The notes below the pieces were generated by a model. That model was not told where the DNA came from, did no database searches, and saw nothing but the letters and a program-made list of their open reading frames with translations. From Variovorax terrae (GTDB lineage Bacteria; Pseudomonadota; Gammaproteobacteria; Burkholderiales; Burkholderiaceae_C), in the NCBI RefSeq assembly GCF_022809125.1, contig NZ_JALGBI010000001.1:1364001-1428000 (forward strand): 64,000 bases of DNA, written 5' to 3'. Position 1 is the stretch's first letter. Each line of letters opens with the position of its first letter. This document shows positions 13,124 to 57,024 of this stretch, piece after piece. The position numbers were made by a program, and so were the translations under genes.

Positions 13124-13981
13124 TCACATCCACAGGCTGCGCCACAGCAGCCGCGGCGCGTCCAGGGCGCCCAACCGGGGGCGGGTGCGCAGCGTGGCGA
13201 AATCCAGGGCCTCGATCTTGTCGAGGATGCGCAGGCCGCCCTGAACCACCAGCCGCAGCTCCCAGCCGGCCCGGCCCGGGACCTGGTGCACGAGTGGAGC
13301 CCCTTTTTGCATCAAGGTCCGCGCCCAGTGGACTTCGCTTGCTATCAATTTGGTAGCTTCGGGAGTCTGCCGCAGCGCCTGCAGGTCGGCTTGCGCCACG
13401 CCGTAGGCGGCGCTGTCCTGGTGCGGCAGGTAGTGGCGGCCGCGCCGCAGGTCCTGCCCGAGGTCTTGCCAGAAGTTGATGAGCTGCAGCGCCGAGCAGA
13501 TGTCGTCGCTGCGCGCGAGCGACGCGCCGTCGTGCACGCCGTACAAGTGCAGCAGCAGCCGGCCGACCGGGTTGGCAGAGCGGCGGCAGTAGTCGAGCAG
13601 CTCGGCGCGGTCGGCGTAGCCGGCGGCGTCGCGGGTCTTTTCCACATCCTGCACGAAGGCGCTGAGCAGATTGGCCAGCAGCGGCTCGGGCAGGGCAAAG
13701 CTGTGCATGGCCTCGCGCAGCGGGCCGAACACCTGCGGCCAGCGGGCCGACGCGGGCTCGCGGCGCGCGGCGGCGGCGAGGTCGGCGCGGTAGGCGGCGA
13801 GCTCGTCCAGCCGCTGCTGCGGCGCGGCATCGCCCTCGTCGGCGATGTCGTCGGCCGTGCGGGCAAACCAGTAGATCGCGGCGATGGCCGGGCGCAGCCG
13901 GGGCGGGCAGAGCCAGGACGCCACCGGGAAATTCTCGTAGTGGGTGACGGGCGGGGCAGAGGGAGCGGCGGCGAGATTCAC
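13124..13981 (-). CDS. hpnC: Hydroxysqualene synthase HpnC (GTG start)
   Basis: A 285-residue paralogue of HpnD that converts presqualene diphosphate to hydroxysqualene. Asp-rich motifs are RTADDIADEGD and INFWQDLGQDLRRGRHYLP. The start is read as GTG at 13981, giving MNLAAAPSAPPVTHYENFPV; no convincing ribosome binding site is visible. Residues about 208-227 are encoded by a copy of the dispersed mini-repeat (13302-13358) in the orientation that yields an ATKLIAS...ARTL peptide. It is the first gene of the hpnCDE operon and diverges from the RND efflux operon. No squalene-hopene cyclase is present in the window. Confidence 0.9.
   Translation of the reverse strand: MNLAAAPSAPPVTHYENFPVASWLCPPRLRPAIAAIYWFARTADDIADEGDAAPQQRLDELAAYRADLAAAARREPASARWPQVFGPLREAMHSFALPEPLLANLLSAFVQDVEKTRDAAGYADRAELLDYCRRSANPVGRLLLHLYGVHDGASLARSDDICSALQLINFWQDLGQDLRRGRHYLPHQDSAAYGVAQADLQALRQTPEATKLIASEVHWARTLMQKGAPLVHQVPGRAGWELRLVVQGGLRILDKIEALDFATLRTRPRLGALDAPRLLWRSLWM
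13302..13358 (+). repeat. Dispersed mini-repeat, copy A (inside hpnC)
   Basis: On the plus strand: a T-run, AAGGTCC, CCAGTGG, then GCTATCAATTTGGTAGC at 13341-13357. This matches the other copies in order and spacing. It lies within hpnC, which reads it on the opposite strand as about 20 in-frame codons. Confidence 0.65.
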
Positions 13982-13996
13982 GGCCGAGATTGTCGC

Positions 13997-14025
13997 TTGA
14001 CAAGTATTCGCGTTTACCCTAGATT
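13997..14025 (+). promoter_or_regulatory. Sigma-70 promoter for RND efflux operon
   Basis: TTGACA at 13997-14002, a 17-base spacer, and TAGATT at 14020-14025, about 55 bases upstream of the membrane fusion protein start. The -35 element is perfect. Confidence 0.75.
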
Positions 14026-14045
14026 ACTAACCGGTCAGTCAGTAG
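14026..14045. promoter_or_regulatory. Putative repressor operator at the RND promoter
   Basis: ACTAACCGGTCAGT (14026-14039) is a pseudo-palindrome (12 of 14 positions symmetric) centred on ACCGGT and extended by a repeated CAGT. It lies just after the -10 element, where a TetR-family repressor typically blocks RND operons. No such regulator gene is adjacent in the window. Confidence 0.5.
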
Positions 14046-14080
14046 AAGATTCTTTGCATACTTTTACATTAACCCTCGCC

Positions 14081-15274
14081 ATGCCCGAACCCTCTCTCAC
14101 ACCGCGAATTCTTGCCGGCCTTGGTGCCGCCGGCGTGGCCCTGCTGCTGACGGCCTGTTCCAAGCCGGCGCCGCCGGAGGAGCCGGTGCGGGCGGTCAAG
14201 GTGATGACCGTGGGCGTGGACGGCTTCCAGGCCGGTTACGAATTTGCCGGCGAGGTGCGGGCGCGCATCGAGTCGCGCCTGGGTTTCCGGGTGGCGGGCA
14301 AGATCATCCGGCGCCAGGCTGAACTGGGCCAGCGCGTCAAGGCCGGCCAGGTGCTGGCCCAGCTCGACCCGCAGGACTACCGGCTGGCGGCCGACGCGGC
14401 GCGCGCGCAGGTGGCCGCGGCGCAGACCAACCGCGACCTGGCGGCGGCCGACTACCGGCGCTACAAGGAACTGAAGGACCAGAACTTCATCGCCGGCGCC
14501 GAACTCGAGCGCCGCGACGCCACGCTCAAGGCGGCCCAGGCCCAGCTTGAACAGGCGCAGGCGCAACTGGCCTCGCAGGGCAACCAGGCGGCTTACACCA
14601 GCCTGGTGGCCGATGTGTCCGGGATCGTCACCGCGATCGAGGCCGAGGTCGGCCAAGTGGTGGCGGCCGGCACGCCAGTGGTGCGCATCGCGCAGGACGG
14701 CCCGCGCGACGCAGTGTTCTCGGTGCCCGAGGACAAGGTGGCGGCGATCCGGCCGGGCTCGGTTGTCGATGTGCGGGTGTGGGCCGGCAATGCGCGCCTG
14801 ACGGGCCGGGTGCGCGACGTGGCGGCCAGCGCCGACCCGGTGACGCGCACCTTCCCGGTCAAGGTGGCTCTGGACGGCCAGGACACCCCGGCGCTGGGCG
14901 CCACGGTCTATGCGGCGCCGCAGGCGCTCAGCCACGCGGGCGCGCAGGTCATCAAGCTGCCGACCAGCGCGCTGCGGCAGGACGGCCAGGCCACGGCGGT
15001 GTGGGTGCTCGACAAGGCGGCGATGACGGTCCGCTCGCAGCCGGTGCAGATCGCCACGGCCGACGGCAACGAGGCCGTGATCAGCGGCGGGTTGCAACCG
15101 GGCATGCTGGTGGTGTCGGCCGGCGTGCATGTGCTGCAACCGGGGCAGAAAGTCACGATTTACCAGCCAAAAGTGCCGGAGGTCCAGGCCAGCGGGTCAC
15201 AGAGCGCTATCAAAAACGTAGCGACTGCCCTGCCTGCGGCATCGGCCGCGGCGCCCGCCCTGGCCGCGAAGTGA
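14081..15274 (+). CDS. RND efflux periplasmic adaptor (membrane fusion lipoprotein)
   Basis: A 397-residue periplasmic adaptor linking an RND pump to an outer-membrane channel. It has a lipoprotein signal (LLLTACSK, lipidated Cys near residue 25), a biotinyl-lipoyl-like domain, an alpha-helical hairpin rich in Ala/Gln (about 105-170), and a beta-barrel domain. The family motifs RVAGKIIRRQAELGQRVKAG and TSLVADVSGIVTAIEAEVGQ are clear. The start at 14081 is the first ATG after the strong promoter at 13997. Residues about 363-381 (PEVQASGSQSAIKNVA) are encoded by a copy of the dispersed mini-repeat (15168-15222). The pump gene follows after 7 bases. No outer-membrane factor is encoded beside it. 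Confidence 0.88.
   Translation: MPEPSLTPRILAGLGAAGVALLLTACSKPAPPEEPVRAVKVMTVGVDGFQAGYEFAGEVRARIESRLGFRVAGKIIRRQAELGQRVKAGQVLAQLDPQDYRLAADAARAQVAAAQTNRDLAAADYRRYKELKDQNFIAGAELERRDATLKAAQAQLEQAQAQLASQGNQAAYTSLVADVSGIVTAIEAEVGQVVAAGTPVVRIAQDGPRDAVFSVPEDKVAAIRPGSVVDVRVWAGNARLTGRVRDVAASADPVTRTFPVKVALDGQDTPALGATVYAAPQALSHAGAQVIKLPTSALRQDGQATAVWVLDKAAMTVRSQPVQIATADGNEAVISGGLQPGMLVVSAGVHVLQPGQKVTIYQPKVPEVQASGSQSAIKNVATALPAASAAAPALAAK
15168..15222 (+). repeat. Dispersed mini-repeat, copy B (inside RND adaptor gene)
   Basis: GAGGTCCAGG, AGCGGGTCA and GCTATCAAAAACGTAGC in the family order, read in frame as PEVQASGSQSAIKNVA near the C-terminus of the adaptor, where insertion is likely tolerated. Confidence 0.8.
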
Positions 15275-15281
15275 GGCGGCC

Positions 15282-18200
15282 ATGACGCAAGCCCAGCCCA
15301 AGGAGAGCTTCAACCTCTCGAAGTGGGCGCTGGACCATCCGGCGCTCACCCGCTACCTGATGATCGTGCTGATGCTGCTGGGCTTTGCCGCCTATTTCCA
15401 GCTCGGCCAGGACGAAGACCCGCCGTTCACCTTCCGCGCCATGGTGGTGCGCACCTACTGGCCCGGCGCCACGGCGCAGCAGGTGGCCGAGCAGGTGACC
15501 GACAAGCTCGAGCGCACGCTGCAGGACGTGCCCTATGCCGACAAGATCCGCAGCTACTCCAAGCCGGGCGAGTCGCAGATCATCTTCCAGATCAAGGACT
15601 CGTCGCGCGCCGGCGAGGTGGCCAACGTCTGGTACACGGCGCGCAAGAAGATCGGCGACATGAAGTACACGCTGCCCGCGGGCGTGCAGGGGCCGTTCTT
15701 CAACGACGACTTCGGCGATGTCTACGGCGTGATCTATGCGCTGGAGTCCGACGGCTTCAGCTACGCCGAGCTCAAGGTCTTCGCCGACGACGTGCGCCAG
15801 CAGCTGCTGCGCGTGCCCGACGTGGCCAAGGTCGACCTGTTCGGCGTGCAGGACGAGAAGGTCTACATCGAGATCTCGCAGCGGCGCCTGGCCCAGCTCG
15901 GGCTGGACATGAATGCCGTGCTGGCCCAGCTGGGCCAGCAGAACGCGGTGGAATCGGCCGGCGCCGTGCAGACGCCGCTGGACGTGGTGCAGGTGCGCGT
16001 GGCCGGTCAGTTCGCGGCGGTGGAGCAGCTCAAGGCCATGCCGATCCGCGGCAGCTCGGGCAACCAGCTTCGCCTGGGCGACATCGCCGACGTCAGGCGC
16101 GGCTACGTCGATCCGCCCGCGGTCAAGGTGCGGCACCAGGGCCGGGAAGTGATCGCGCTGGGGGTCTCCATGGCCAAGGGCGGCGACATCATCGCCCTGG
16201 GCAAGGCGCTGCAGACCGCCACGCAGCGCATCGGCAAGGCCCTGCCGGCGGGCGTGAGCCTGCAGCAGGTGCAGGACCAGCCCCGGTCGGTGTCCAGCTC
16301 GGTCAATGAGTTCGTGCGCGTGCTGATCGAGGCCGTGGCGATCGTGCTGGCCGTCAGCTTCATCAGCCTGGGCCTGCACCGCCGCCCCGGCAACCACCCG
16401 CTGTGGCGGCGCTGGACCCTGGACATGCGGCCCGGCCTGGTGGTGGGCATCACGATCCCGCTGGTGCTGGCCGTGACCTTCCTGGCCATGAACTACTGGG
16501 GCATCGGGCTGCACAAGATCTCGCTGGGCTCGCTGATCATCGCCCTGGGCCTGCTGGTGGACGACGCCATCATCGCGGTCGAGATGATGGTGCGCAAGAT
16601 GGAGGAGGGCTACGACAAGGTGCGCGCCGCCACCTTCGCCTACGAGATCACCGCCATGCCCATGCTCACGGGCACGCTGATCACGGCCGCGGGCTTCCTG
16701 CCCATCGGCATCGCCAGGTCGGTGACCGGTGAATACACCTTCGCGATCTTCGCCGTGACGGTGATCGCGCTGGTGCTGTCGTGGATCGTGTCGGTGTACT
16801 TTGTGCCTTACCTGGGAACCTTGCTGCTCAAGACGCCGCCGGGCCGCCCCAAGGCGGCTGGCGCCCCCTCGGGGGGCAGCGAAGCACACGCCGTGGCGAG
16901 CGTGGGGGCAGGCGGCCTGCCACACGTGCAGGAGGTGGCTGAGGGCCACGACAGTCCGCACGAGATGTTCGACAGCCCGTTCTACAACACCTTCCGCCAG
17001 GCGGTGAACTGGTGCGTGCAGCACCGCTGGCTCACCATCGGCGCCACGCTGCTGATCTTCGCGCTCGGCATCGTGGGCATGGGCCGGGTGCAGCAGCAGT
17101 TCTTCCCCGATTCGAGCCGGCCCGAGATCCTGGTGGACATCTGGTTCCCCGAAGGCACCTCGTTCGCGGCCAACGAGGAGGTGACGCGCCGCGTCGAGCA
17201 GCGCTTCATGGCGCTGGACGGCGTGACCACGGTCAGCACCTGGGTCGGCTCGGGCGTGCCGCGCTTCTACCTGCCGCTGGACCAGGTGTTTCCCCAATCC
17301 AACGTCTCGCAGTTCATCATCATCCCCAAGGACCTGAAGCTGCGTGAATCGCTGCGCGTGCAGCTGCCCGCGCTGCTGGCCCAGGAGTTTCCCGAGGTGC
17401 GCGGGCGCGTCAAGCTGCTGCCCAACGGCCCGCCGGTGCCGTACCCGATGCAGTTCCGCGTGATCGGCACCGACCCGGTGGCGCTGCGCGCGCGCGCCGA
17501 CGAAGTCAAGGCCGCGATGCGCGAGAGCCCCAACACGCGCGGCGTCAACGACAACTGGAACGAATCGGTCAAGGTGCTGCGGCTGGAGGTGGACCAGTCC
17601 AAGGCGCGCGCCCTGGGCGTCACCAGCCAGTCGATCGCCCAGGCCTCCCGCACCATCCTGGCGGGCACCCCGGTCGGCCAGTTCCGCGAGAACGACAAGC
17701 TGATCGACATCGTGCTGCGCCAGCCGCTGGACGAGCGCAACGCCATCACCGACATCGCCAACGCCTACCTGCCCACGGCCTCGGGCCAGTCGATCCCGCT
17801 GACCCAGATCGCCAAGCCGGTGTTCACCTGGGAGCCGGGCGTGATGTGGCGCGAGAACCGCGACTACGCCATCACCGTGCAGGGCGACATCATCGAGGGC
17901 CTGCAGGGCGCCACCGTCACCAACGAGCTGCTGCCCCAACTGAAGCGCCTGGAGGCCGGATGGCCGCCGGGCTACCGCATCGAGGTGGCCGGCGCGGTGG
18001 AGGAAAGCTCCAAGGGCTCGGCCTCGATCGCCGCGGGCATCCCGATCATGCTGTTCATCACCTTCACGCTGCTGATGCTGCAGCTGCAGAGCTTCAGCCG
18101 CGCCATGCTGGTGTTCCTGACCGGGCCGCTGGGCATTGCCGGCGTGGCCGGCGCGCTGCTGGTGCTGAATCGGCCGTTCGGCTTCGTGGCGCTGCTGGGC

Positions 18201-18548
18201 GTGATCGCGCTGATGGGCATGATCCAGCGCAACTCGGTGATCCTGATCGACCAGATCGAGCAGGACCGCTCCCGAGGCGTGCCGGCCTGGGACGCCATCG
18301 TCGAATCCGCCGTGCGCCGCCTGCGCCCCATCGTGCTGACGGCCGCCGCCGCCGTGCTGGCCATGATCCCGCTGTCGCGCAGCGTGTTCTGGGGCCCGAT
18401 GGCTGTGGCCATCATGGGCGGCCTGATCGTGGCCACGGTGCTGACCCTGCTGGCGCTGCCGGCCATGTACGCCGCATGGTTTCGCGTGAAACGCGAAACA
18501 CCGGCGTTATCGGAATCCGCCCCGGCGGGGCAGGCGCAGGGCGCGTGA
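15282..18548 (+). CDS. RND-family efflux pump inner-membrane permease
   Basis: A 1088-residue proton-driven drug exporter of the AcrB/MdtB class. The first membrane helix (about residues 22-42) is followed by a large periplasmic loop with YPxA-like WPGATAQQVAEQV. Helices 2-6 include the proton-relay stretch IIALGLLVDDAIIAVEMMVRKMEEGY, and the last helices contain VALLGVIALMGMIQRNSVILIDQIEQ. Between helices 6 and 7 the cytoplasmic loop carries an insertion (about residues 520-545) encoded by a GC-rich palindromic repeat at 16841-16911. The 3' end contains a hairpin repeat that recurs just after the stop. It forms an operon with the adaptor gene. Substrate is unknown. Confidence 0.9.
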   Translation: MTQAQPKESFNLSKWALDHPALTRYLMIVLMLLGFAAYFQLGQDEDPPFTFRAMVVRTYWPGATAQQVAEQVTDKLERTLQDVPYADKIRSYSKPGESQIIFQIKDSSRAGEVANVWYTARKKIGDMKYTLPAGVQGPFFNDDFGDVYGVIYALESDGFSYAELKVFADDVRQQLLRVPDVAKVDLFGVQDEKVYIEISQRRLAQLGLDMNAVLAQLGQQNAVESAGAVQTPLDVVQVRVAGQFAAVEQLKAMPIRGSSGNQLRLGDIADVRRGYVDPPAVKVRHQGREVIALGVSMAKGGDIIALGKALQTATQRIGKALPAGVSLQQVQDQPRSVSSSVNEFVRVLIEAVAIVLAVSFISLGLHRRPGNHPLWRRWTLDMRPGLVVGITIPLVLAVTFLAMNYWGIGLHKISLGSLIIALGLLVDDAIIAVEMMVRKMEEGYDKVRAATFAYEITAMPMLTGTLITAAGFLPIGIARSVTGEYTFAIFAVTVIALVLSWIVSVYFVPYLGTLLLKTPPGRPKAAGAPSGGSEAHAVASVGAGGLPHVQEVAEGHDSPHEMFDSPFYNTFRQAVNWCVQHRWLTIGATLLIFALGIVGMGRVQQQFFPDSSRPEILVDIWFPEGTSFAANEEVTRRVEQRFMALDGVTTVSTWVGSGVPRFYLPLDQVFPQSNVSQFIIIPKDLKLRESLRVQLPALLAQEFPEVRGRVKLLPNGPPVPYPMQFRVIGTDPVALRARADEVKAAMRESPNTRGVNDNWNESVKVLRLEVDQSKARALGVTSQSIAQASRTILAGTPVGQFRENDKLIDIVLRQPLDERNAITDIANAYLPTASGQSIPLTQIAKPVFTWEPGVMWRENRDYAITVQGDIIEGLQGATVTNELLPQLKRLEAGWPPGYRIEVAGAVEESSKGSASIAAGIPIMLFITFTLLMLQLQSFSRAMLVFLTGPLGIAGVAGALLVLNRPFGFVALLGVIALMGMIQRNSVILIDQIEQDRSRGVPAWDAIVESAVRRLRPIVLTAAAAVLAMIPLSRSVFWGPMAVAIMGGLIVATVLTLLALPAMYAAWFRVKRETPALSESAPAGQAQGA
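16841..16911 (+). repeat. GC-rich palindromic repeat inserted in frame in the RND pump gene
   Basis: Contains GCCGCCCCAAGGCGGC (16843-16858), an inverted repeat around AA, then GCGCCCCCTCGGGGGGC and GCGAAGCAC...GCGAGCGTGGGGGC. From memory this matches an intergenic repeat common in Comamonadaceae. Here it is translated as part of the cytoplasmic loop (GRPKAAGAPSGGSEAHAVAS). Confidence 0.7.
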
Positions 18549-18584
18549 CCCGCATGGTTCCGCGTGAAGCGCGAAACACCGGCG
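18472..18584 (+). repeat. Direct repeat (35 bp, 78-bp period) carrying a hairpin
   Basis: CCGCATGGTTTCGCGTGAAA... at 18472-18506 recurs at 18550-18584 with two substitutions. The first copy contains a perfect 9-bp stem (GTTTCGCGT / ACGCGAAAC, loop GAA) at 18479-18499; in the second the stem is partly degraded. The first copy is the end of the RND gene and the second is downstream of its stop. Confidence 0.75.
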
Positions 18585-18622
18585 GCGGCCTGAATCCGGT
18601 TCGCGGCTGCGCATCCGGGGTC

Positions 18623-18650
18623 TCAACAAGGCCCGGTTCCGCGCTAAAAT
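18623..18650 (+). promoter_or_regulatory. Promoter upstream of tRNA-Leu and tig
   Basis: TCAACA at 18623-18628, a 16-base spacer and TAAAAT at 18645-18650. Transcription would start near 18657 and run through a hairpin into tRNA-Leu; no other promoter is visible before the tRNA. Confidence 0.5.
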
Positions 18651-18671
18651 AGAAGGTTGACCGATTTCCAG

Positions 18672-18727
18672 CGGACGGTCTGCGCGGCGCGGCAGGGCTC
18701 CTGCGGCGCCCCGGGGCCGTCCGTTTT
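18672..18727 (+). ncRNA. Leader hairpin or small RNA upstream of tRNA-Leu
   Basis: CGGACGGTC (18672-18680) pairs with GGCCGTCCG (18715-18723), and an inner stem GCAGG/CCTGC lies between; the outer stem is followed by TTTT at 18724-18727. It lies between the predicted promoter and the tRNA. It could be a terminator giving a short RNA of about 70 nt, an attenuator, or simply a processed leader. Confidence 0.4.
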
Positions 18728-18739
18728 CATTGGACCGGC

Positions 18740-18826
18740 GCGCGGGTGGCGAAATTGGTAGACGCACCAGGTTTAGGTCCTGACGCCAGCAATGGTGTGG
18801 GGGTTCGAGTCCCCCCCCGCGCACCA
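18740..18826 (+). tRNA. tRNA-Leu (anticodon TAG)
   Basis: An 87-base tRNA with CCA encoded. The acceptor stem GCGCGGG pairs with CCCGCGC; the D-arm is TGGCGAAATTGGTAGACGCA, the long variable arm is typical of leucine, and the T-loop is GGTTCGAGTCC. The anticodon loop TTTAGGT gives TAG. The first anticodon-stem pair is a C-A mismatch (CCAGG against CCTGA). tig follows after 28 bases, so both are probably on one transcript. Confidence 0.95.
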
Positions 18827-18854
18827 GGATATGTCTTTTAAAGAGAGTTGAAAA

Positions 18855-20165
18855 ATGGCTGTGAATGTTGAAACCCTTGAGAAGCTGGAACGCAAGATGA
18901 CGTTGACGCTGCCCGTCAACGTGATCCAGTCCGAAGTGGATGCCCGCCTGAAGAAGCTGGCCCGCACCGTCAAGATGGACGGTTTCCGTCCCGGCAAGGT
19001 TCCGATGAACGTGGTGGCCCAGCGCTATGGCTACTCGGTTCACTACGAAGTCATGAACGACAAGGTCGGCGAAGCCTTCGCCAGCGCCGCCAACGAGGCC
19101 AAGCTGCGCGTGGCCGGCCAGCCGCGCATCACCGAAAAGGAAGGCTCGCCCGAGGGCGAGCTGTCGTTCGACGCCATTTTCGAGGTCTACCCCGAAGTCA
19201 AGATCGGCGACCTGGCCAGCGCCGAGGTGGAGAAGGTGTCGGCCGAAGTGACCGACAGCGCCATCGACAAGACCCTGGAGATCCTGCGCAAGCAGCGCCG
19301 CACCTTTGCCCAGCGCGCCCATGACGCGGCGGCCCAGGACGGCGACCGCGTGACGGTCGACTTCGAAGGCAAGATCGACGGCGAGCCCTTCTCGGGCGGC
19401 AAGGCCGAGGACTTCCAGTTCCTGGTCGGCGAAGGCCAGATGCTCAAGGAGTTCGAGGATGCCGTGCGCGGCATGAAGTCGGGCGAAAGCAAGACCTTCC
19501 CGCTGGCCTTCCCCGCCGACTACCATGGCAAGGACGTGGCCGGCAAGCAGGCCGACTTCCTGGTGACCGTGAAGAAGGTCGAGGCCGCCCACCTGCCGGA
19601 AGTCAACGAGGCGCTGGCCAAGTCGCTCGGCATCGCTGACGCCACGGTGGAAGGCCTGCGCGCCGACATCAAGAAGAACCTGGAGCGCGAAGTCAAGTTC
19701 CGCCTGCTGGCCCGCAACAAGAACGCCGTGATGGACGCTCTGGTGGCCAAGGCCGAACTCGACCTGCCCAAGTCCAGCGTGCAGGCCGAAGTGGACCGCA
19801 TGATCGAAGGCGCCCGCGCCGACCTCAAGCAGCGCGGCATCAAGGACGCCGACAAGGCGCCGATCCCCGACGACGTGTTCCGCCCGCAGGCCGAGCGCCG
19901 TGTGCGCCTGGGCTTGGTGGTGGCCGAGCTGGTGCGTGCCAATGAACTGCACGCCAAGCCCGAGCAGCTCAAGGCCCACATCGAGGAGCTGGCCGCCAGC
20001 TACGAGAAGCCGGCCGACGTGGTGCGCTGGTACTACGGCGACAACCGCCGCCTTGCCGAGGTCGAGGCCATCGTGATCGAGAACAACGTGACCGATTTCG
20101 TGCTGGCCAAGGCCAAGATCAACGACAAGGCCGTGTCGTTCGACGAGCTGATGGGCCAGAACTGA
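18855..20165 (+). CDS. tig: Trigger factor (ribosome-associated chaperone, peptidyl-prolyl isomerase)
   Basis: A 436-residue chaperone that binds nascent chains at the ribosome exit tunnel. The N-terminal ribosome-binding domain carries the signature [12 protein letters not shown] near residue 40. The FKBP-like isomerase domain spans about 155-240 ([22 protein letters not shown]), and the C-terminal chaperone domain completes the usual length. It is followed by clpP, clpX and lon, the classic folding and degradation cluster. Start 18855 follows GAGAG. Confidence 0.97.
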
Positions 20166-20188
20166 TCCGTCCGCCCATCTGACGATCT

Positions 20189-20226
20189 GGGGCTTGTGCT
20201 TGGCGGCACAGGCCCCATTTGTTTTT
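20189..20226 (+). terminator. Terminator between tig and clpP
   Basis: GGGGCTTGTGC (20189-20199) pairs with GCACAGGCCCC (20206-20216), with one G-T pair, followed by ATTTGTTTTT. It would partly separate tig from clpP transcription. Confidence 0.75.
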
Positions 20227-20240
20227 CGGTACAGTACCGA
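20226..20240. promoter_or_regulatory. Perfect palindrome in the clpP leader
   Basis: TCGGTACAGTACCGA is a 7-bp inverted repeat around a central A, ending 20 bases before the clpP ATG and overlapping the tail of the tig terminator. It may be an operator; no known regulator site was recognised. Confidence 0.4.
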
Positions 20241-20259
20241 CAGCATCTCTGGAGAAAAC

Positions 20260-20983: not shown

Positions 20984-22249
<1,266 letters not shown>

Positions 22250-24910: not shown

Positions 24911-24986
24911 GCGGGAATAGCTCAGTTGGTAGAGCGCAACCTTGCCAAGGTTGAGGTCGAGAGTTCGAGACTCTTTTCCCGCTCCA
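24911..24986 (+). tRNA. tRNA-Gly (anticodon GCC)
   Basis: 76 bases including CCA. Acceptor GCGGGAA pairs with TTCCCGC; anticodon arm CAACC TTGCCAA GGTTG gives GCC; T-arm GAGAGTTCGAGACTC. It is the first of three tRNA genes in the cluster. Confidence 0.97.
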
Positions 24987-24993
24987 CATTCCG

Positions 24994-25021
24994 AAAGGGA
25001 AGCGAAAGCTTCCCTTTTTTG
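24994..25021 (+). terminator. Terminator after tRNA-Gly
   Basis: AAAGGGAAGC, loop GAAA, GCTTCCCTTT and further T residues. It lies between tRNA-Gly and tRNA-Cys, so some read-through or a separate promoter is needed for the downstream tRNAs. Confidence 0.8.
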
Positions 25022-25043
25022 TCAAGAGAGACGGAAAAATCCT

Positions 25044-25117
25044 GGCGCGATAGCAAAGCGGTTATGCACCGGATTGCAAATCCGATTAGCCCAGTTCGAC
25101 TCTGGGTCGCGCCTCCA
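25044..25117 (+). tRNA. tRNA-Cys (anticodon GCA)
   Basis: 74 bases including CCA. Acceptor GGCGCGA pairs with TCGCGCC; anticodon arm CCGGA TTGCAAA TCCGA gives GCA; T-arm CCCAGTTCGACTCTGGG. The closing anticodon-stem pair is imperfect. Confidence 0.95.
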
Positions 25118-25124
25118 GAGACCC

Positions 25125-25160
25125 AGCCCCGCCAACCCACGTTGCCGGGGCTGTTTTGTT
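25125..25160 (+). terminator. Terminator after tRNA-Cys
   Basis: AGCCCCG (25125-25131) pairs with CGGGGCT (25146-25152), followed by GTTTTGTT. It lies between tRNA-Cys and tRNA-Leu. Confidence 0.65.
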
Positions 25161-25175
25161 TGACAATAGACTGTG

Positions 25176-25268
25176 GCCCGGATGGTGAAATTGGTAGACA
25201 CAGCGGACTTAAAATCCGCCGCTTTCCCGAAAGGGAGCGTACCGGTTCGACCCCGGTTCCGGGCACCA
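25176..25268 (+). tRNA. tRNA-Leu (anticodon TAA)
   Basis: 93 bases including CCA. Acceptor GCCCGGA pairs with TCCGGGC; anticodon arm GCGGA CTTAAAA TCCGC gives TAA; the long variable arm CTTTCCCGAAAGGGAGC is typical of class II tRNA-Leu; T-arm CCGGTTCGACCCCGG. Confidence 0.97.
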
Positions 25269-27328: not shown

Positions 27329-27336
27329 CGCCGGTC

Positions 27337-27400
27337 ACTATCAATTTAATAGCTGAAGAAGACCGCTGGACCAGGACATCAGGCCGATTTGATGCAGATT
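27337..27400 (-). repeat. Dispersed mini-repeat, copy C (intergenic)
   Basis: Read on the minus strand: GGCCTGATGTCCTGG, AGCGGTC, then AGCTATTAAATTGATAG. It lies between the convergent MFS and murI genes. The minus strand would encode RPDVLVQRSSSAIKLI, the same peptide frame as copies E, F and B, although this copy is not in a gene. Confidence 0.8.
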
Positions 27401-27439
27401 TTCGCCTGAAGGAGCCCTGCGGAGCCGGTTCCCGGCGTT

Positions 27440-28243
27440 TCAGGCCAGCCAGCGCGCGGCAGCGGCCTCCAGGGCGCCGGGCCGGTCGGTGCCGAGCAGG
27501 CGCAGCTGGCCGCCGCCGGCCTCGTCGGTGGCCAGCAGCCCGGCGGCTTCGAGCCGCTGGCGCGTCTGGCGCGCCACGGGCTCGCCGGTGTCGACCAGCG
27601 TCACTTGCGGTCCGACCAGCGCACGCAGCACGTCGCTGGCGAAGGTGTAGTGGGTGCAGCCGAGCACCAGCGTGTCGATCTGCCCGTTTCCAGAGCCAAA
27701 TGACCCCAAGGTCCTGGTGTACTGGTCGCACAGTGCTATGGTTTTCGTAGCATCGGCGGACTGGATCGCGTCGGCCAGCCCGTCGCAAGGCTGCACGATG
27801 AACTCGGCCTGGCCGGCCAGCGCCTCGTGCAGCGCACGGAACTTGGCGCTGGCCAGCGTGCCGCGCGTGGCCATGATGCCGATGCGCCCGGTGCGGCTCA
27901 GCGCGATGGCGGGCTTGAGGGCGGGCTCCACGCCGATGATGGGCAGATCCGGGTGCTCGGCCCGCAGCAGGTGCACGGCCGCGGTTGTGGCGGTGTTGCA
28001 GGCCACCACCAGCGCCTTGATGCCATGCTGCGCGCGCAGCTCCTGGGTGATGGCCTGCGAGCGCGCCGCCACGTAGGCGTCGCCGCGCTCGCCGTAGGGC
28101 GCGTGGCCGCCGTCGGAGAAGTAGACGAAGTCCTCGCGCGGCAGGCCGGCGCGCAGGGCCCGCAGGATGCTCAGGCCGCCGACGCCGCTGTCGAACACGC
28201 CCACCGGCCGGCGGGCACCCGGAAGAGGGCTGGTATCACCCAT
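27440..28243 (-). CDS. murI: Glutamate racemase
   Basis: A 267-residue cofactor-independent racemase making D-glutamate for peptidoglycan. The N-terminus VGVFDSGVGGLSILRAL is diagnostic. The two catalytic Cys are in VACNTATT and LGCTHYTF. Residues about 164-186 (DATKTIALCDQYTRTLGSFG) coincide with a copy of the dispersed mini-repeat (27687-27752), read in the reverse orientation, in a loop just before the second catalytic Cys. It lies 16 bases downstream of the class I fumarase gene on the same strand. Confidence 0.93.
   Translation of the reverse strand: MGDTSPLPGARRPVGVFDSGVGGLSILRALRAGLPREDFVYFSDGGHAPYGERGDAYVAARSQAITQELRAQHGIKALVVACNTATTAAVHLLRAEHPDLPIIGVEPALKPAIALSRTGRIGIMATRGTLASAKFRALHEALAGQAEFIVQPCDGLADAIQSADATKTIALCDQYTRTLGSFGSGNGQIDTLVLGCTHYTFASDVLRALVGPQVTLVDTGEPVARQTRQRLEAAGLLATDEAGGGQLRLLGTDRPGALEAAAARWLA
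27687..27752 (+). repeat. Dispersed mini-repeat, copy D (inside murI)
   Basis: Plus strand: CCCCAAGGTCCTGG, ACTGGTC, then GCTATGGTTTTCGTAGC at 27735-27751. It is inverted relative to copy C, 290 bases away, and more diverged than B, C, E and F. Confidence 0.55.
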
Positions 28244-39311: not shown

Positions 39312-39399
39312 CCGCCAACCGCATCGCCAGCCGGAGGTTGCTATCAAAAGAAGAGCGGAAGATGACCGCCCGACAAGGACCTCCGGCCGATAATGCATG

Positions 39400-39433
39400 A
39401 AAAAAGCCCGCTGGATGCAGCGGGCTTTTTTTC
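39400..39433. terminator. Bidirectional terminator between acs and cytochrome c gene
   Basis: AAAAAGCCCGCT (39401-39412), loop GGATGC, AGCGGGCTTTTTTT. It has A-tract and T-tract flanks, so it serves both convergent genes. Confidence 0.9.
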
Positions 39434-50798: not shown

Positions 50799-50865
50799 CG
50801 GGCGCCAGCGTTGCCTGGCCTGGAGGAGGCCTCGGCTTGCCGGTGTCTTGCCCGGTCTGTCATTC

Positions 50866-50897
50866 GGGGGCCATGGGCCTGCGGCACAATGGCCCCC
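50866..50897. promoter_or_regulatory. lgt: Perfect inverted repeat abutting the lgt start codon
   Basis: GGGGGCCAT (50866-50874) and ATGGCCCCC (50889-50897) pair over 9 bases with a 14-base loop, ending one base before ATG 50898. No Shine-Dalgarno sequence lies between. It may affect lgt translation. Confidence 0.5.
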
Positions 50898-51728
50898 ATG
50901 CTGATGTACCCGCAAATCGACCCTGTCGCCCTCAAGCTCGGCCCGCTGGCCATCCACTGGTACGGCCTGACCTATCTCGCTGCTTTCGGGCTGTTCATGT
51001 TCCTGGGGCTGCGCCGCCTGCGGCACGAGCCCTTTGCCTCCATTACCGGCCCGGGCGCCTGGACGCGCAAGGACGTGGAGGACATCCTGTTCCTCGGCGT
51101 GCTGGGCGTGGTGGTGGGCGGGCGCCTCGGCTACTGCCTGTTCTACAAGCCGGGCTACTACCTCACGCACCCGCTGGAGATCTTCGCGGTCTGGCAGGGC
51201 GGCATGAGCTTTCACGGCGGCATGCTGGGCGTGATCGGCTCCATGCTGTGGTTCGCGCACTCGCGCCGCCGGCCCATGCTGCAGGTGGCCGACTTCGTGG
51301 CGCCCTGCGTGCCCACCGGCCTCGCGGCCGGTCGGGTGGGCAACTTCATCAACGGTGAGCTCTGGGGGCGCTTCAGCGACCCGAACCTGCCCTGGGGCAT
51401 GGTGTTTCCCAACAGCGGCTCGATGCTGCCGCGCCATCCCTCGCAGGTCTACCAGTTCCTGCTCGAAGGCCTGCTGCTGTTCGTGCTGCTGTGGCTGTAC
51501 GGCCGCAAGGCGCGCAAGCCCGGCCAGGTGGCGGCGGCCTTCCTGGTGGGCTACGGCGTGTTCCGCTTCATCGCCGAGTTCTTCCGCGAGCCCGACGCCT
51601 TCCTGGGCCTGCTGTCGCTGGGCATGAGCATGGGGCAGTGGCTGTGCCTGCCGATGATCGTGGGCGGCGTCTGGCTCTGGCTGTGGGCCGAGCGGCAGGC
51701 GCCGCGCACGGGCCGGGCGGCGGCATGA
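50898..51728 (+). CDS. lgt: Prolipoprotein diacylglyceryl transferase
   Basis: A 276-residue inner-membrane enzyme that adds diacylglycerol to the lipobox Cys of prolipoproteins. Key motifs are [27 protein letters not shown] and the signature [14 protein letters not shown]. Seven hydrophobic segments are seen. The start at 50898 ([21 protein letters not shown]) fits the family; an in-frame ATG at 50889 falls in the hairpin. Its stop overlaps the next start (ATGA at 51725-51728). Confidence 0.95.
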
Positions 51729-52783
51729 CGGCCCGCGCGGTCGGGGCCGTGGTGCTCCTGGCCGCGCTGCTCACGGCAGCCTGGGCCCAGCCGCCGGGCG
51801 CGGACCGGCCGGTGCCGCTGCCGGACCTCTCGAACGGCGTCACCTTGCGCGTGGCCTATGTCGAGAATCCGCGCCTGCCGGCACTCCCCGCGCCGCGCCT
51901 GGACGCCATCCTGGCGCTCACGGCCCGGCAGCTTCAGGCGCACCTGGGCATCGCCGCCCGCTTCACCGAACCGCAGCACCTGCCGATCGGCCCGCTGTTC
52001 TCGGCGCTGAGCCCGCGGCTGGCGCTGGAGGCCGAACGCCAGCGTCTGGACGCAACGCCCGATCCCGCCAGGCTCGAGCCGCTGGTCCGCCCGCTGCTCA
52101 AGGACCTGCGTGAAGCCGGCGACCTCGCGCAGCAAAGGCGCTTCGCGGCACCTTACCTGGTGCAGCCGCCCGCGGACGGCAGCGACCGGGCCTTTGCGCG
52201 CGCCTTGCTGATCACCCAGCACACGCTGCTGCGGGACTGGGGGCAGGCGCTGGCGCTCGACGGCCGGCCGGTGATCGGCGGCGACCGCTACAACGAGTAC
52301 AGCTTCTGGAACCTGCTGGGCTCGACCGAGCTGCCTTACGAAGTGGTCATCACCAACCAGCTGATCGCCAGCGCCGAACGCACGGAGAACTCGGTGCACA
52401 GCGCGATCCGCGGCGGCGTCAGCAACGGCATCACCACCCAGAGCCGGCGCGGACGCTACCAGCTGGTGTCCATCCTCAGCAGCTACCCGTTCACCGACGC
52501 CTCGGCCCTGGCGCAGCGCCTGCGCGGCGGCGAGCCGCTGTCCGAGGCGCAGGCCGACAGCGCCATGGCGCTGCTGCTGGCCCACGAGCTCGGCCACCAG
52601 CTGCTGCACCTGGGGCACCCGTTCGGCAACGCGCACTGCCTCATGACGCCACCGGTGGCGCTGGCGTTCCGCTCCTGGGAGGCTGCGCTGGCGCCGGAGC
52701 AATGCCCGCTGGGCAGCAGCCGGGCCCAGACGCCGGGATTCCTGCGCTTCGCCAGTCCCGACGCGATGTTCCGGCCGCGCTGA
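51725..52783 (+). CDS. Predicted secreted zinc metallopeptidase, unrecognised family
   Basis: A 352-residue exported protein with a signal peptide (about 1-21, ending AWA). I do not recognise the family. The C-terminal part has a zinc-peptidase-like motif, [12 protein letters not shown] at 287-298 with Glu288, then HCLM at 304-307, reminiscent of the metzincin/archaemetzincin layout but not an exact match. A second Cys at 327 could pair with Cys305. The middle contains [30 protein letters not shown]. It overlaps lgt by ATGA, so it is co-translated with the lipoprotein acyltransferase. No lipobox is present. A GntR regulator follows after 107 bases. Confidence 0.7.
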
Positions 52784-52865
52784 ACCGGCGCTCAGTCATC
52801 GTCAACGCGTTCTCAGGGTATGCCCGCATGCCGAGGGGCTTGCCGCAGGCATGCTGGTCTGTTGA

Positions 52866-52881
52866 TAATTACGTGTAATTA
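52866..52881. promoter_or_regulatory. Operator palindrome upstream of GntR regulator
   Basis: TAATTACGTGTAATTA is a perfect 16-bp palindrome ending 9 bases before the regulator ATG, in an AT-rich patch of otherwise GC-rich DNA. It is the likely self-operator for the malonate operon. Confidence 0.6.
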
Positions 52882-52890
52882 CAGAAAATT

Positions 52891-53574
52891 ATGCGCCTCA
52901 TCACCCCCAGCCTCGCCCCCCAGTCGCTTCATGACGAAGTGGCGGCCAGCCTGCGCAGCCGCATCTTCGGGGGCGAGCTGGCGCCGGGCAGCTTCATCGA
53001 CGAGGCGGCGCTGTGCGAGAGCCTGAAGATCTCGCGCACGCCGCTGCGCGAGGCGCTCAAGGTGCTGACGGCCGAGGGGCTGGTGCGCCACGAGCCGCGC
53101 CGCGGCTGCTTCGTCAACGAGGTCACGGCGCAGGACCTCGACGAGATCTTCCCCGTCATCGCGCTGCTCGAAGGGCGCTGCGCCTTCGAGGCCGCGCGCC
53201 GCGCCAGCGATGCCGACCTCGCGGCGCTGGAGACGCTGCACGAGCGGCTCACGCGCCATGCCAAGGCCCGGCGCATCAACGACTACTACGAGGCCAACCA
53301 CCTGATCCACGAGGCCATCATCACGCTGGCCAACAACCGCTGGCTGGCCCAGGTGATCGGCGACCTGCGCAAGATCCTCAAGCTGGCGCGGCTGCAGCAG
53401 CTGCACGCGCCGGGCCGGCTGGAGCAGAGCCTGTCGGAGCACCTCGCGGTGTTCGCCGCGCTCAAGGCGCGCGACAGCGAGGGCGCCGAGGCCGCGATGC
53501 GCACCCACCTGACGCGCCAGCGCGAAGCCCTGCGCGAGCTGGCGCGCAACCAGCCGTCGAGGCTGGCGTCATGA
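52891..53574 (+). CDS. GntR-family regulator (FCD domain), malonate operon regulator candidate
   Basis: A 227-residue regulator. The winged helix-turn-helix (about 10-75) has FIDEAALCESLKISRTPLREALKVLTAEGLV, and the FCD ligand-binding domain (about 85-215) contains metal-binding positions in DYYEANHLIHEAII and SLSEHLAVFAAL. It is the first gene of an operon with malonyl-CoA decarboxylase and malonyl-CoA synthetase, matching the position of MatR in rhizobial mat operons. Its ligand is probably malonate or malonyl-CoA (inference). Confidence 0.88.
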   Translation: MRLITPSLAPQSLHDEVAASLRSRIFGGELAPGSFIDEAALCESLKISRTPLREALKVLTAEGLVRHEPRRGCFVNEVTAQDLDEIFPVIALLEGRCAFEAARRASDADLAALETLHERLTRHAKARRINDYYEANHLIHEAIITLANNRWLAQVIGDLRKILKLARLQQLHAPGRLEQSLSEHLAVFAALKARDSEGAEAAMRTHLTRQREALRELARNQPSRLAS

Positions 53575-53629
53575 GCCCTCGCCGGGCCCTTGCCGCGACG
53601 GCCGCAACCTGCCAGAGGGAGTGGATCGC

Positions 53630-55096
53630 ATGAGTGCGCCCGAATGGATTGCCCGCAGCGTCTCCAGACTGCGCTCCACCGAGAAATCAGAGGGAAAAAG
53701 GCCTGATGTCCAGGTGCAGCGGTCATCGGATGCTATCAAAACAGGAGCAGCCGAAGGTGCCCGCTCGACCCGGGAGCGGCTGCAGGCCACGCTGCGCCGC
53801 AAGCAGGAGGCGCTCTCGCCGCGCGTGCTGCGGCGCACGCTGACCGAGCTGCAGGCCATCATCGACCCGCAGGTCAGCGAGATCGAAGGCGGCCGCCGCG
53901 CCATGCGGGTGGCCGGCTGGTATGCCGGCGCCGCGCCCAACGAGCGGCGCGACATGTGGCTGCTGATGAGCGAGCAGTTCGTGGCCGACGCGCAGAAAAC
54001 CAAACTGGCGCAGGCCCAGTTCGAGGCCGCCGTCGGCACGCCCGATGAAGCCGTGGCCGAAGTGCGTTACCGCCGCGCCACGGTGTCGCCGCGCCGGCGC
54101 CTGCTGCAGCGCTTCAGCGCCTTCCCGGACGGCATCCGGTTCCTGGTCGATCTGCGCGCCGAGATGCTGCCCCACCTCAAGTCGGACAAGCGCCTGCAGG
54201 CGCTGGACGTCGAGATGGAATACATGTTCTCGACCTGGTTCGACGTGGGCTTCCTGGAGCTGCGCCGCATCAGCTGGGACTCGCCCGCGTCGCTGATCGA
54301 GAAGCTCATCAAGTACGAGGCGGTGCACGACATCAAGAGCTGGTCCGATGTCAAGAACCGGCTGGACTCGGACCGCCGCTGCTACGGGTTCTTTCACCCG
54401 CGGCTGCCCGACGATCCGCTGATTTTTGTCGAGGTGGCGCTGATGGACGAGATCGCCGGCAGCATCACGCCGCTGCTCGACGAGTCGGCCGATGCCGCGG
54501 ACCTGAACAAGGCCACCACCGCGATTTTCTATTCCATCAGCAACACGCAGGGCGGCCTGCGCGGCGTGAGCTTTGGCGATTCGCTGATCAAGCGCGTGGT
54601 CGAGACCCTGAAGGAGGAATTCCCCCGGCTCAAGACCTTCGCCACGCTGTCGCCGATTCCCGGCTTCCGCGGCTGGCTGGGAAAGAACGCCGCCGCCATG
54701 CTGGAGCAGCTCGATGACAAGGCCCGCACGGCGCTGGGCCGCGCCATCGGCTTCGAGCCGCCGACGGCCGCGCATTTTCTCGGCGCGGCCGACAACGTGC
54801 TGGCGCTGCCCGACAAATCGCCGGTGCGGCTGATGCTGCTGCGCTGCGCCGCGCGGTATCTCGGCCAGGCGATGGAGGGCGGCAAGCCGGCCGATGCCGT
54901 GGCCCGCTTTCACCTCGGCAACGGCGCCTGCGTCGAGCGGCTGAACTGGGCCGGCGACCCCTCGCCCAAGGGGCTCAAGCAGTCGTATGGGCTGATGGTG
55001 AACTACCTGTACGACCTGAAGCGCCTGGACAGGCACCGCGCCCTGCTCGCCAGCGGCAGGATCGCCGTTTCGGGGCAGATCAAACCCCTGCTGTGA
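53630..55096 (+). CDS. Malonyl-CoA decarboxylase
   Basis: A 488-residue enzyme converting malonyl-CoA to acetyl-CoA and CO2. The helical N-terminal domain is followed by the catalytic GNAT-like domain with IFYSISNTQGGLRGVSFGDSLIKRV and LKTFATLSPIPGF, and the C-terminal VARFHLGNGACVERLNWAGD. The start at 53630 follows AGAGGGA. Residues about 22-40 (RPDVQVQRSSDAIKTGA) come from a copy of the dispersed mini-repeat (53694-53748), placed in a variable N-terminal region. It corresponds to MatA of malonate operons. Confidence 0.92.
   Translation: MSAPEWIARSVSRLRSTEKSEGKRPDVQVQRSSDAIKTGAAEGARSTRERLQATLRRKQEALSPRVLRRTLTELQAIIDPQVSEIEGGRRAMRVAGWYAGAAPNERRDMWLLMSEQFVADAQKTKLAQAQFEAAVGTPDEAVAEVRYRRATVSPRRRLLQRFSAFPDGIRFLVDLRAEMLPHLKSDKRLQALDVEMEYMFSTWFDVGFLELRRISWDSPASLIEKLIKYEAVHDIKSWSDVKNRLDSDRRCYGFFHPRLPDDPLIFVEVALMDEIAGSITPLLDESADAADLNKATTAIFYSISNTQGGLRGVSFGDSLIKRVVETLKEEFPRLKTFATLSPIPGFRGWLGKNAAAMLEQLDDKARTALGRAIGFEPPTAAHFLGAADNVLALPDKSPVRLMLLRCAARYLGQAMEGGKPADAVARFHLGNGACVERLNWAGDPSPKGLKQSYGLMVNYLYDLKRLDRHRALLASGRIAVSGQIKPLL
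53694..53748 (+). repeat. Dispersed mini-repeat, copy E (inside malonyl-CoA decarboxylase gene)
   Basis: GGCCTGATGTCCAGGTGCAG, CGGTCATCGGAT, GCTATCAAAACAG. Read in frame as RPDVQVQRSSDAIK. Together with copies B and F it defines the peptide frame. Confidence 0.8.
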
Positions 55097-55224
55097 GATG
55101 GGAGCAGCGCGGGCCATCGCGGCGATCTGGCCTGGCCATGACCGGCAAGCGGCCGGCGCCGTGTTTTTTCCCTGAGAATGTTCGTGTGAGTTCGATAACA
55201 ACCGATGGATAGGAGACAAGCACC

Positions 55225-56214
55225 ATGAAACACCTCAACCGCCGCGATGTGCTGCGCCTGGCAACCGCCGGCGCTGCCGCGGCTTCTTCGTCTTCCGTGC
55301 TGCATGCGCAGAGCGGCTGGCCCACCAAGCCGGTGACCCTGATCGTGCCGTTCCCGGCCGGCGGCGGCACCGACGCCTTTGCGCGGCCGCTGTCCGGGCA
55401 GTTCGCCAAGCTCAGCGGCAAGACGCTGGTGATCGACAACCGCGGCGGCGCCGGCGGCACGCTGGGTGCGGGCATCGCGGCCAAGGCGCCGGCCGATGGC
55501 TACACGCTGTTCATGGGCGCGGTGCACCATGCGATCGCGCCGTCGATGTACCCCAAGCTCGACTACGACCTCGAGCGCGACTTCATCCCGCTGTCGCTGC
55601 TGGCCAACGTGCCGCAGGTCGTGGTGGTCAACCCCAAGAACATCACGACGCCGGATTTCAAGTCCTTCCTCGACTACGTGCGCAAGAACCCGGGCCGGCT
55701 CAACTACGGCTCGGCCGGCACCGGCACCTCGCACCACCTCGCGGGCGAACTGTTCAAGCAGCAGACCAAGACCTTCATCACCCACATCCCCTACACCGGC
55801 GCCGGCCCGGCCTTGCGCGATCTGGTCGGCGGCCAGGTGGACATGATGTTCGACGGCCTGGGCTCCTCGGCGGCCCACATCAAGGGCGGGCGCGTCAAGG
55901 CGCTGATGGTCTCGGGCGCCAAGCGCAACCCGGCCTTCCCCGACGTGCCCTGCGCGGCCGAGGTCGGCCTGCCCGACTACACCGTCACCACCTGGTACGG
56001 CCTGTGGGCGCCCAAGGGCACGCCGCCCGACGTGCAGGCGCGCATCGCGGACGACATGCGCAAGGCGGTGCTGTCCGATGAGCTCAAGGCCGTCTGGGCC
56101 AGCAATGGCGCCGAGTTCGGCAACCTCTCGCCGCAGCAGTTCGGCGGCTTCGTGCACGGTGAAATCACCCGCTGGGCCGCCGTGGTCAAGGCCTCGGGCG
56201 CGAAGCTGGACTGA
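55225..56214 (+). CDS. Bug-family periplasmic solute-binding protein
   Basis: A 329-residue receptor of the tripartite tricarboxylate transporter type, very common in Burkholderiales. Signal peptide with NRRDVLRLA (twin-arginine-like) ends near HAQ. The mature protein has the family signature WPTKPVTLIVPFPAGGGTDAFARPL and DNRGGAGGTLGAGIAAKAPADGYTL. In this malonate operon it may capture malonate for uptake, taking the place of the MatC carrier; no membrane subunits (TctA, TctB) are encoded nearby. Start 55225 follows AGGAG. Confidence 0.9.
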   Translation: MKHLNRRDVLRLATAGAAAASSSSVLHAQSGWPTKPVTLIVPFPAGGGTDAFARPLSGQFAKLSGKTLVIDNRGGAGGTLGAGIAAKAPADGYTLFMGAVHHAIAPSMYPKLDYDLERDFIPLSLLANVPQVVVVNPKNITTPDFKSFLDYVRKNPGRLNYGSAGTGTSHHLAGELFKQQTKTFITHIPYTGAGPALRDLVGGQVDMMFDGLGSSAAHIKGGRVKALMVSGAKRNPAFPDVPCAAEVGLPDYTVTTWYGLWAPKGTPPDVQARIADDMRKAVLSDELKAVWASNGAEFGNLSPQQFGGFVHGEITRWAAVVKASGAKLD

Positions 56215-57024
56215 ATGGCCGGGCATATCGCGCTCGACACGGCAGGCCCGCATCCGGGCCTGGCCTTCGTCACCCTGTCCCATCCCGGCAAGCTCAATGC
56301 CATGTCGCGCGCGATGTGGCGCGAGCTGCGCGCGGTGTTCGAGCAGGTCCAGCGCAGCGGCGGGATCCGCTGCGTGGTGATCCGCGGCGAGGCCGGCCAG
56401 TTCTGCGCGGGCGGCGACATCGCCGAGTACCCGGGCTTTCGCTTCGAGGAGGCCGGCCTGCGCGACTTCCATGAGCGCGACGTCTGGGGCGGCCTGCAGG
56501 CCCTGCTTGATTGCGACGTGCCCCTGGTCGCGCAGATCGAGGGCGCCTGCATGGGGGCGGGAGTGGAGATCGCGAGTTGCTGCGACATCCGCATCGCCGC
56601 CGAGTCGGCGCGCTTCGGCGCCCCGATCGCCCGGCTCGGCTTTCCGATGGCGCCGCGCGAGGCCCAGCTCGTGATGCGGGCGGCCGGCGAGCTGACCGCA
56701 CGCGAAATGCTGCTGGAAGCGGCCGTGCTCGACGCCGCCGAGATGAAGGCGCGCGGCTTTCTCCACCGCGTGGTGGACGAGGGGCAGGCGGCCGAGCAGG
56801 CCTTGCAGGCTGCCCGGCGCGTGGCGGCGCTCGCGCCACAGGCCGCACGCCTCAACAAACAGACCTTTCGGGCATTGAATCGGCCAGAGGTCCAGGTGCA
56901 CGGGAGCTCGGCAGCTATGGATTTGATAGCAAACGCCTACCGCTACGCGGACAGCGACGAACACCGCGAAGGCATCCAGGCCTTCATTGAAAAACGAACC
57001 CCCCGCTTTCTGACCCCACCATGA
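56215..57024 (+). CDS. Enoyl-CoA hydratase/isomerase family protein
   Basis: A 269-residue crotonase-fold protein. Oxyanion motifs are GQFCAGGDIAEYPGF and ACMGAGVEIASCCDIRIA. Catalytic Glu residues of true hydratases are not obviously both present, so the reaction is unknown. ATG follows the Bug stop immediately, and the stop overlaps the malonyl-CoA synthetase start (ATGA). Residues about 222-239 (RPEVQVHGSSAAMDLIA) are from a copy of the dispersed mini-repeat (56878-56930). Its position in a malonate operon suggests action on a malonyl- or related acyl-CoA. Confidence 0.85.
   Translation: MAGHIALDTAGPHPGLAFVTLSHPGKLNAMSRAMWRELRAVFEQVQRSGGIRCVVIRGEAGQFCAGGDIAEYPGFRFEEAGLRDFHERDVWGGLQALLDCDVPLVAQIEGACMGAGVEIASCCDIRIAAESARFGAPIARLGFPMAPREAQLVMRAAGELTAREMLLEAAVLDAAEMKARGFLHRVVDEGQAAEQALQAARRVAALAPQAARLNKQTFRALNRPEVQVHGSSAAMDLIANAYRYADSDEHREGIQAFIEKRTPRFLTPP
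56878..56930 (+). repeat. Dispersed mini-repeat, copy F (inside enoyl-CoA hydratase gene)
   Basis: CGGCCAGAGGTCCAGGTGCA, CGGGAGCTCGGCA, GCTATGGATTTGATAGC. Read in frame as RPEVQVHGSSAAMDLIA, aligned with copies E and B. Confidence 0.8.

Follow-up and report, generated by a model that had tools for sequence, protein, structure and literature searches.

An abundant 67-bp composite motif in Variovorax terrae and its relatives: inserted unit or putative recognition sequence?

How can one short sequence lie inside several unrelated genes and leave their reading frames intact? The question is raised by a stretch of 64,000 nucleotides from Variovorax terrae (NCBI RefSeq assembly GCF_022809125.1, contig NZ_JALGBI010000001.1, positions 1,364,001 to 1,428,000; hereafter the window), for which an original prediction, made from the letters of the window, listed six copies of a 55-65 bp element, five of them inside genes. 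All six were found at the positions that it gave, the five lie within called genes, and they belong to an abundant motif which is real and apparently not described before: the prediction knew of no formal description, and none was found in the literature searched, which lies mostly outside subscription journals.

The repeat is longer than predicted, as the information profile gives it about 67 bp (positions -24 to +42 of the weight matrix). It is a composite of two A/T tracts about 10 bp, or one helical turn, apart (-23 to -20 and -13 to -10), followed by GGCC and by two pseudo-palindromes, GAKGTCC-9-GGWCAT and TGCTAT-7-RTAGCA. In the genomes compared, the central pseudo-palindrome (GTCC-9-GGWC) is lineage-specific, and the right-hand one (GCTAY-7-RTAGC) is constant. 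The spacing from GTCC to GCTAT is exactly 24 nt in all six copies first listed in the window, the copies have a mean GC content of 50.5%, against 68% in the window, and their mean weight-matrix score is 62 bits over the 67 bp.

A search of the window with a core pattern, allowing up to 3 mismatches, returned seven matches against 0.27 expected, six being the known copies and one not, although this excess is not independent of the six copies, from which the pattern was derived. Throughout the source genome (4.93 Mb), a near-identical core pattern at up to 2 mismatches gave 490 matches, against 3 for the reversed pattern, while the 67-bp weight matrix recovered 193 copies, and its reversed form none, in a sample of 1,662,397 bases, made up of the window and of 80 stretches from the largest contig, each near 20 kb in length. 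The genome-wide excess over chance on which the original prediction depended is thus present, and extrapolation from the sample gives about 570 copies in the genome. The weight matrix places seven in the window, one beyond those first listed.

The sampled copies comprise 104 in the forward and 89 in the reverse orientation, with no pattern by contig half; a replication-strand bias, considered on account of an early forward excess on one contig, was discarded as a listing artefact. Density has no trend along the contig, except for zero copies in the last 38 kb sampled. The copies are spread over the 20-kb stretches more evenly than Poisson would give (P 0.005, 79 stretches), and 10 neighbour distances fall below 1 kb, against 17.8 at random (P 0.017). 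The stretches poor in GC are sparser, with 11 copies in the 10 stretches under 65% GC and 175 in the 69 others, low GC being a weak proxy for newly acquired DNA.

The placement of the copies was counted on genes from a custom gene caller, which replaced an earlier one that chose antisense shadows. Wholly genic copies number 78 of the 193, a further 55 overlap a gene end and 60 are intergenic, whereas random 67-bp windows fall into these classes in 80, 9 and 11% of cases. The mean score is 67 for intergenic copies and 58 inside genes. Gaps between convergent genes hold 40 copies and divergent gaps 8, and the densities are 1.45 copies per kb in convergent, 0.55 in tandem and 0.21 in divergent gaps (from the 114 assignable copies among the intergenic and partial ones).

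The genic copies, 43 sense and 35 antisense, bear out the proposal of a dispersed family that unrelated proteins carry in frame. One frame is shared by 37 of the 43 sense copies, where about 22 are predicted from stop-codon content alone, and by 25 of the 35 antisense copies, where open frames alone predict about 23. Openness of the frame is thus not enough to account for the sense preference but suffices for the main antisense frame; among antisense copies, it is the minor frames that depart from expectation.

The original prediction also took the element to insert as a unit of fixed length, which did not hold. In ligA, aligned in 21 genomes, the motif region is gap-free against the 20 others. 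When the right palindrome of this gene is scored on a template taken from the motif itself, 17 genomes with at least 60 exact right-hand hairpins reach 10-14 of 14, and four with 0-5 hairpins reach 7-9 (rho 0.74); among the motif-bearing genomes, the lowest scores belong to three with low hairpin counts (60, 114 and 128). The four motif-poor genomes show a similar protein pattern without the motif, and the comparison with them gives silent changes at 6-10 of the 22 codons and residue-replacing changes at 8-11.

In purD, also compared in 21 genomes, the motif is present in the source genome and in G012, G019, G031 and G035, that is, in 4 of the 14 others known to bear it, and it is absent from this gene in all six motif-poor genomes. 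Its region is gap-free in 18 of the 20 others, with 12-15 extra nt in G035 and G009. Within these alignments, the ligA and purD copies differ from motif-free genomes by substitutions, both silent and replacing, and small changes on the spot, rather than insertion, appear to have produced them.

At six further sites, the net length over the motif and its 30-nt flanks was taken from global alignments with the motif-poor genomes G068 and G170. The change ranges from -30 to +42 nt and is +67 at none: 0 in hpnC (G068 only), +26 and +42 in the RND adaptor gene (G068 and G170, in this order throughout), -27 and -30 in murI, -3 and 0 in truB, +21 and +21 in L140_6666 (ABC ATPase-like by inspection only) and +18 in L140_1941 (G068 only). 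Against the best PDB homologues at eight sites, the proteins differ by 0 to +8 aa, where a 67-bp insert would give +22 aa: 0 in PurD and LigA, +1 in a MobA-like protein (a weak match), +3 in MurI and an RluD-like protein, +4 in TruB, +5 in AroA and +8 in a member of the YfiH family; a second PurD homologue in the PDB is 2 aa longer. Because ligA is gap-free, purD is nearly so and no tested site stands at +67 nt, unit insertion is not supported, and at the sites tested it is rejected. This carries a caution, given that repeats which look like inserts can arise in place.

Of 299 genomes of the family, 143, among them the source genome, carry the right-hand hairpin in exact form, with 1 to 529 per genome, and the other 156 have no match; one or two matches in a genome can be due to chance. 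Among 243 genomes sampled from other families of the order, none exceeds 4 hairpins. Among loci of known name around a single gene, those of Polaromonas, Rhodoferax, Acidovorax and relatives have the motif too. The distribution is patchy even within one genus (g96), where G095 has 400 hairpins, G278 has 529 and G200 has 1, a contrast that offers a natural case of motif gain or loss.

In the source genome, 85 of 87 loci chosen by the right palindrome alone, read on either strand, have GTCC at the fixed distance, where chance gives 0.7%. The commonest central word is another in six other genomes, for which 10-19 copies each were chosen by a generic scorer. It is GCCC in G123 (11 of 12), G223 (8 of 13) and G035 (14 of 19), GCCG or GCCA in G031 (6 of 15) and G262 (6 of 13), and GCGC in G144 (4 of 10).

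Nine of 191 copies tried could be placed in another lineage, and at eight of the nine at least one other lineage shows a recognisable copy; these shared sites carry C where the source copy has T (8 sites, both results by inspection). At murI, L183 and L186, lineages have different stem letters around similar loop letters, which suggests stepwise change; L130 and L134 lack this pattern. As far as these comparisons reach, lineages differ in the central block, and the shared gene sites carry the local version. The original prediction had proposed to regard the similarity as ancestral if distant genera carried the same residues at the same sites; by that rule some sites are ancestral, but their letters differ by lineage.

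In the close pair G031 and G262, 10 of 14 G031 sites could be placed by both flanks, and all ten are occupied in G262, while the place in G180 that matches one G031 site holds no copy. With the best-matching partner chosen for each copy, and one partner used twice, the identity between the two genomes is 75-96% at core positions, 63-89% over whole elements and 77-88% in the aligned flanks.

These occupancies bear on a history in which an ancient mobile repeat, similar to miniature inverted-repeat transposable elements (MITEs), repetitive extragenic palindromic (REP) elements or Rickettsia palindromic elements (RPE), was once inserted, trimmed to fit and homogenised throughout each lineage by gene conversion. 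It would account for the sharp gap in score between copies and background, the extra nucleotides at the adaptor, L140_6666 and hydratase sites, the preference for convergent gaps, the site empty in G180 and the Y1 transposase-like genes found in 222 of the 299 genomes. It is nevertheless quite unlikely, given the ligA and purD alignments, the lack of a 67-nt difference at any tested site and the occupancy in G262 of every G031 site that could be placed; moreover, G020 has 389 hairpins and no Y1 match, and a copy with the strict hairpin lies within 200 bp of a Y1 gene in 1 of 16 genomes. The survey of Y1 genes and of their flanks thus does not support identity with a REP system and its REP-associated tyrosine transposase (RAYT), or REPtron. 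The Y1 transposase-like gene itself (G000:C2:424512-424838 in the source genome, G000, and present in many genomes of the family) is mostly single-copy and seldom near the motif, and has 230-253 aa in 19 of 20 stretches read.

The central arms are complementary in several lineages, as would be required of a structured RNA or of a single-strand hairpin acting in transcripts or as folded DNA. Among 24 proposed base pairs in the copies of the source genome, the outer central-stem pair -3/19 covaries above shuffles (P 0.004), and the T-G pairs at 28/36 could pair on one strand only. No excess was found for the variable right-palindrome pairs 23/41, 27/37 and 28/36, nor for -1/17, 4/12 and 5/11, and three pairs (-22/-11, -19/-14 and 29/35) lie below shuffles (P ≤ 0.007); the conserved core pairs show hardly any variation, and near-invariant pairs are uninformative on covariation. 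This scarcity of arm covariation speaks, though not decisively, against a folded strand, and the complementary arms may fit two protein half-sites on double-stranded DNA at least as well. Given also that genes carry both orientations and that a search of Rfam returned tRNAs only, plus unrelated sub-threshold miRNA matches, and no family for the motif, a role for the folded strand is very improbable.

The reading favoured here, held with slightly less than even confidence, is that of a dispersed recognition motif in double-stranded DNA which is maintained by an uptake-like drive. The element would be a putative protein-recognition motif rather than a mobile insert, and its copies would arise and persist mainly through substitutions in pre-existing sequence, within the tolerance of the host protein, as seen at ligA and purD and generalised from them. 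Cells may take up, or otherwise favour, DNA that bears the motif and recombine it back into the chromosome, in the manner of the uptake signal sequences (USS) and DNA uptake sequences (DUS), so that better matches would spread at hundreds of places without benefit to each gene. Where the preferred version shifts in a lineage, the old sites would follow, as observed wherever a shared site was placed. Both the binding of a protein and uptake as the process are predictions of this reading.

Several observations weigh against such a drive. A motif of 67 bp with a mean of 62 bits is far longer than the USS and DUS cores, the near-match excess stops at 3 mismatches (59 against 23 in the control at 3, and 342 against 375 at 4), and only 3 sites score 10-25 bits, i.e., weak intermediates are few. 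Distances between copies under 2 kb are no different from random, and of the 14 other genomes that bear the motif, 10 lack it at purD. Extra sequence of 18-42 nt is present at some sites, the decarboxylase linker and the hydratase region of the window vary in length, and partial insertion may have occurred at such places. Whole-element identity in G031 and G262 is not above that of the flanks, the core positions alone being higher, and one pair of the 24 does covary (-3/19). The ComEC family, present in the source genome and in 287 of the 299 genomes, is non-discriminating, and a competence gene was rejected as a discriminator of motif-bearing genomes, since ComEC is almost universal.

On the other hand, the motif may be bound throughout the genome by a protein of chromosome organisation, repair or regulation, with ordinary selection, and not uptake drive, preserving each site. 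The half-sites of a dimer would suit the two dyad-like blocks, whose arms covary little, and the dominance of GTCC in the source genome, the evenness of the counts per 20 kb and the identity of the core positions in G031 and G262, relative to their flanks, agree with this explanation. Selection per site should be weak, however, at the seemingly arbitrary places where copies lie, which include conserved enzyme domains, and the patchiness within genus g96, like the lack of a strand pattern and of a clear trend along the contig, also counts against it, which leaves it rather unlikely.

If the uptake-like reading were correct, DNA self-recognition by uptake signals might have evolved independently a third time, in some of the Comamonadaceae and close relatives, with a patchy distribution. 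The motif of this system would be composite and unusually long, and its central half-sites would change dialect at orthologous sites across the genome and so rewrite protein sequences. This proposal is a tentative one, in which doubt prevails; strong uptake sequence preference is described, in the part of PMC7811141 cited here, for species in two bacterial families. A third system would allow the origin of such signals, their changes of dialect and their effect on proteomes to be tested in environmental bacteria. Should the process be another than uptake, it would still have to be explained how about 570 copies are kept and shift in concert.

The copies of the window and other features observed there are listed in the table. 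The gene names of the original prediction stand for hpnC, the RND adaptor and murI, which match NCBIfam models over the cut-off. Many crotonase/enoyl-CoA hydratase models match the hydratase, all 25 shown being below the cut-off, while the decarboxylase has no NCBIfam match, and the name malonyl-CoA decarboxylase is that of the original prediction.

Motif copies and other features observed in the window
Feature	Window positions	Strand	Orientation and frame	Weight-matrix score	Remarks
Motif copy in hpnC	13293..13359	+	antisense to gene, antisense frame 1	46.6	HpnC by NCBIfam
Motif copy near C-terminus of RND adaptor gene	15158..15224	+	sense frame 0	59.7	
Motif copy between convergent genes	27335..27401	-	intergenic	76.9	
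Motif copy in murI	27687..27753	+	antisense frame 1	58.0	
Seventh motif copy, between convergent genes	39338..39404	-	intergenic	68.3	right-hand palindrome degenerate
Motif copy in N-terminal linker of malonyl-CoA decarboxylase	53684..53750	+	sense frame 0	74.5	
Motif copy in enoyl-CoA hydratase	56866..56932	+	sense frame 0	54.8	
Different GC-rich repeat, about 76 bp, inside RND permease gene	16834..16909		in frame		
Duplicate segments, 1415 bp apart	within 1..2000				92% identical over 300 nt, 94% over 224 nt
Single tRNA gene	18740..18823				
Cluster of three tRNA genes	24911..25265				

In the hydratase, whose orthologues were compared in 64 loci, the 5' A/T tract of the copy overlaps codons that are aligned in the orthologues (TFRAL). 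Part of the orthologues of the decarboxylase carry the motif versions of other lineages in the linker, and the murI site has GCCC in the three other lineages placed, where the source copy has GTCC. At the place of the seventh copy, none was seen in the other lineages shown.

Among known repeats, RPE are read in frame in unrelated proteins and are described as inserted units. The motif is likewise in frame in unrelated proteins, whereas insertion of unit length, tested here against orthologues, was not found. REP elements are dispersed, partly palindromic and associated with RAYT transposases; the motif shares the dispersal and the partial palindromy and is enriched between convergent genes, but 78 of its 193 copies are wholly in genes, and a Y1 gene is seldom near.

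The betaproteobacterial repeat element (BRE), according to the part of Hot et al. (2011; PMC3110155) cited here, has 75-91 bp and 69% GC in Bordetella, is often in tandem and reaches at most 29 copies per genome. It resembles the motif as a small dispersed repeat, found in some of the same genera and with some copies inside genes. The motif, with 67 bp, 50.5% GC and about 570 copies per genome, is set apart from it by the description of BRE and not by its letters, and identity was rejected on length and GC content. The different repeat of about 76 bp in the RND permease gene, which has 9 matches in the sample of the source genome, itself included, and dozens in the relative G068, resembles BRE in size and GC, again as compared by description, not letters.

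The closest parallels are with USS (Pasteurellaceae) and DUS (Neisseriaceae), for which the papers are cited in the parts that bear on the comparison. USS are said to evolve by point mutation, not insertion, and to be rarer where sequence is new or constrained (PMC7811141), DUS have dialects and a permissive location of the core (PMC3630211, PMC2397512), many recent DUS are argued to arise by recombination (PMC2397512), one orientation favours a reading frame (PMC2346458), and mismatched forms show a graded excess (PMC1939737). The motif similarly has hundreds of dispersed, over-represented copies (193 in 1.66 Mb, control 0), lineage dialects, a preferred sense frame and under-representation in coding sequence (genes wholly contain 78 of 193 copies, where random windows give 80%), and its ligA and purD copies differ by substitutions, with mixed changes at other sites. 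It differs in being a 67-bp composite where the USS and DUS cores have 9-12 bp, in an excess that ends at 3 mismatches instead of being graded, and in belonging to another family. Taken together, these comparisons suggest a motif that behaves like an uptake sequence and is too long to be classed as USS or DUS.

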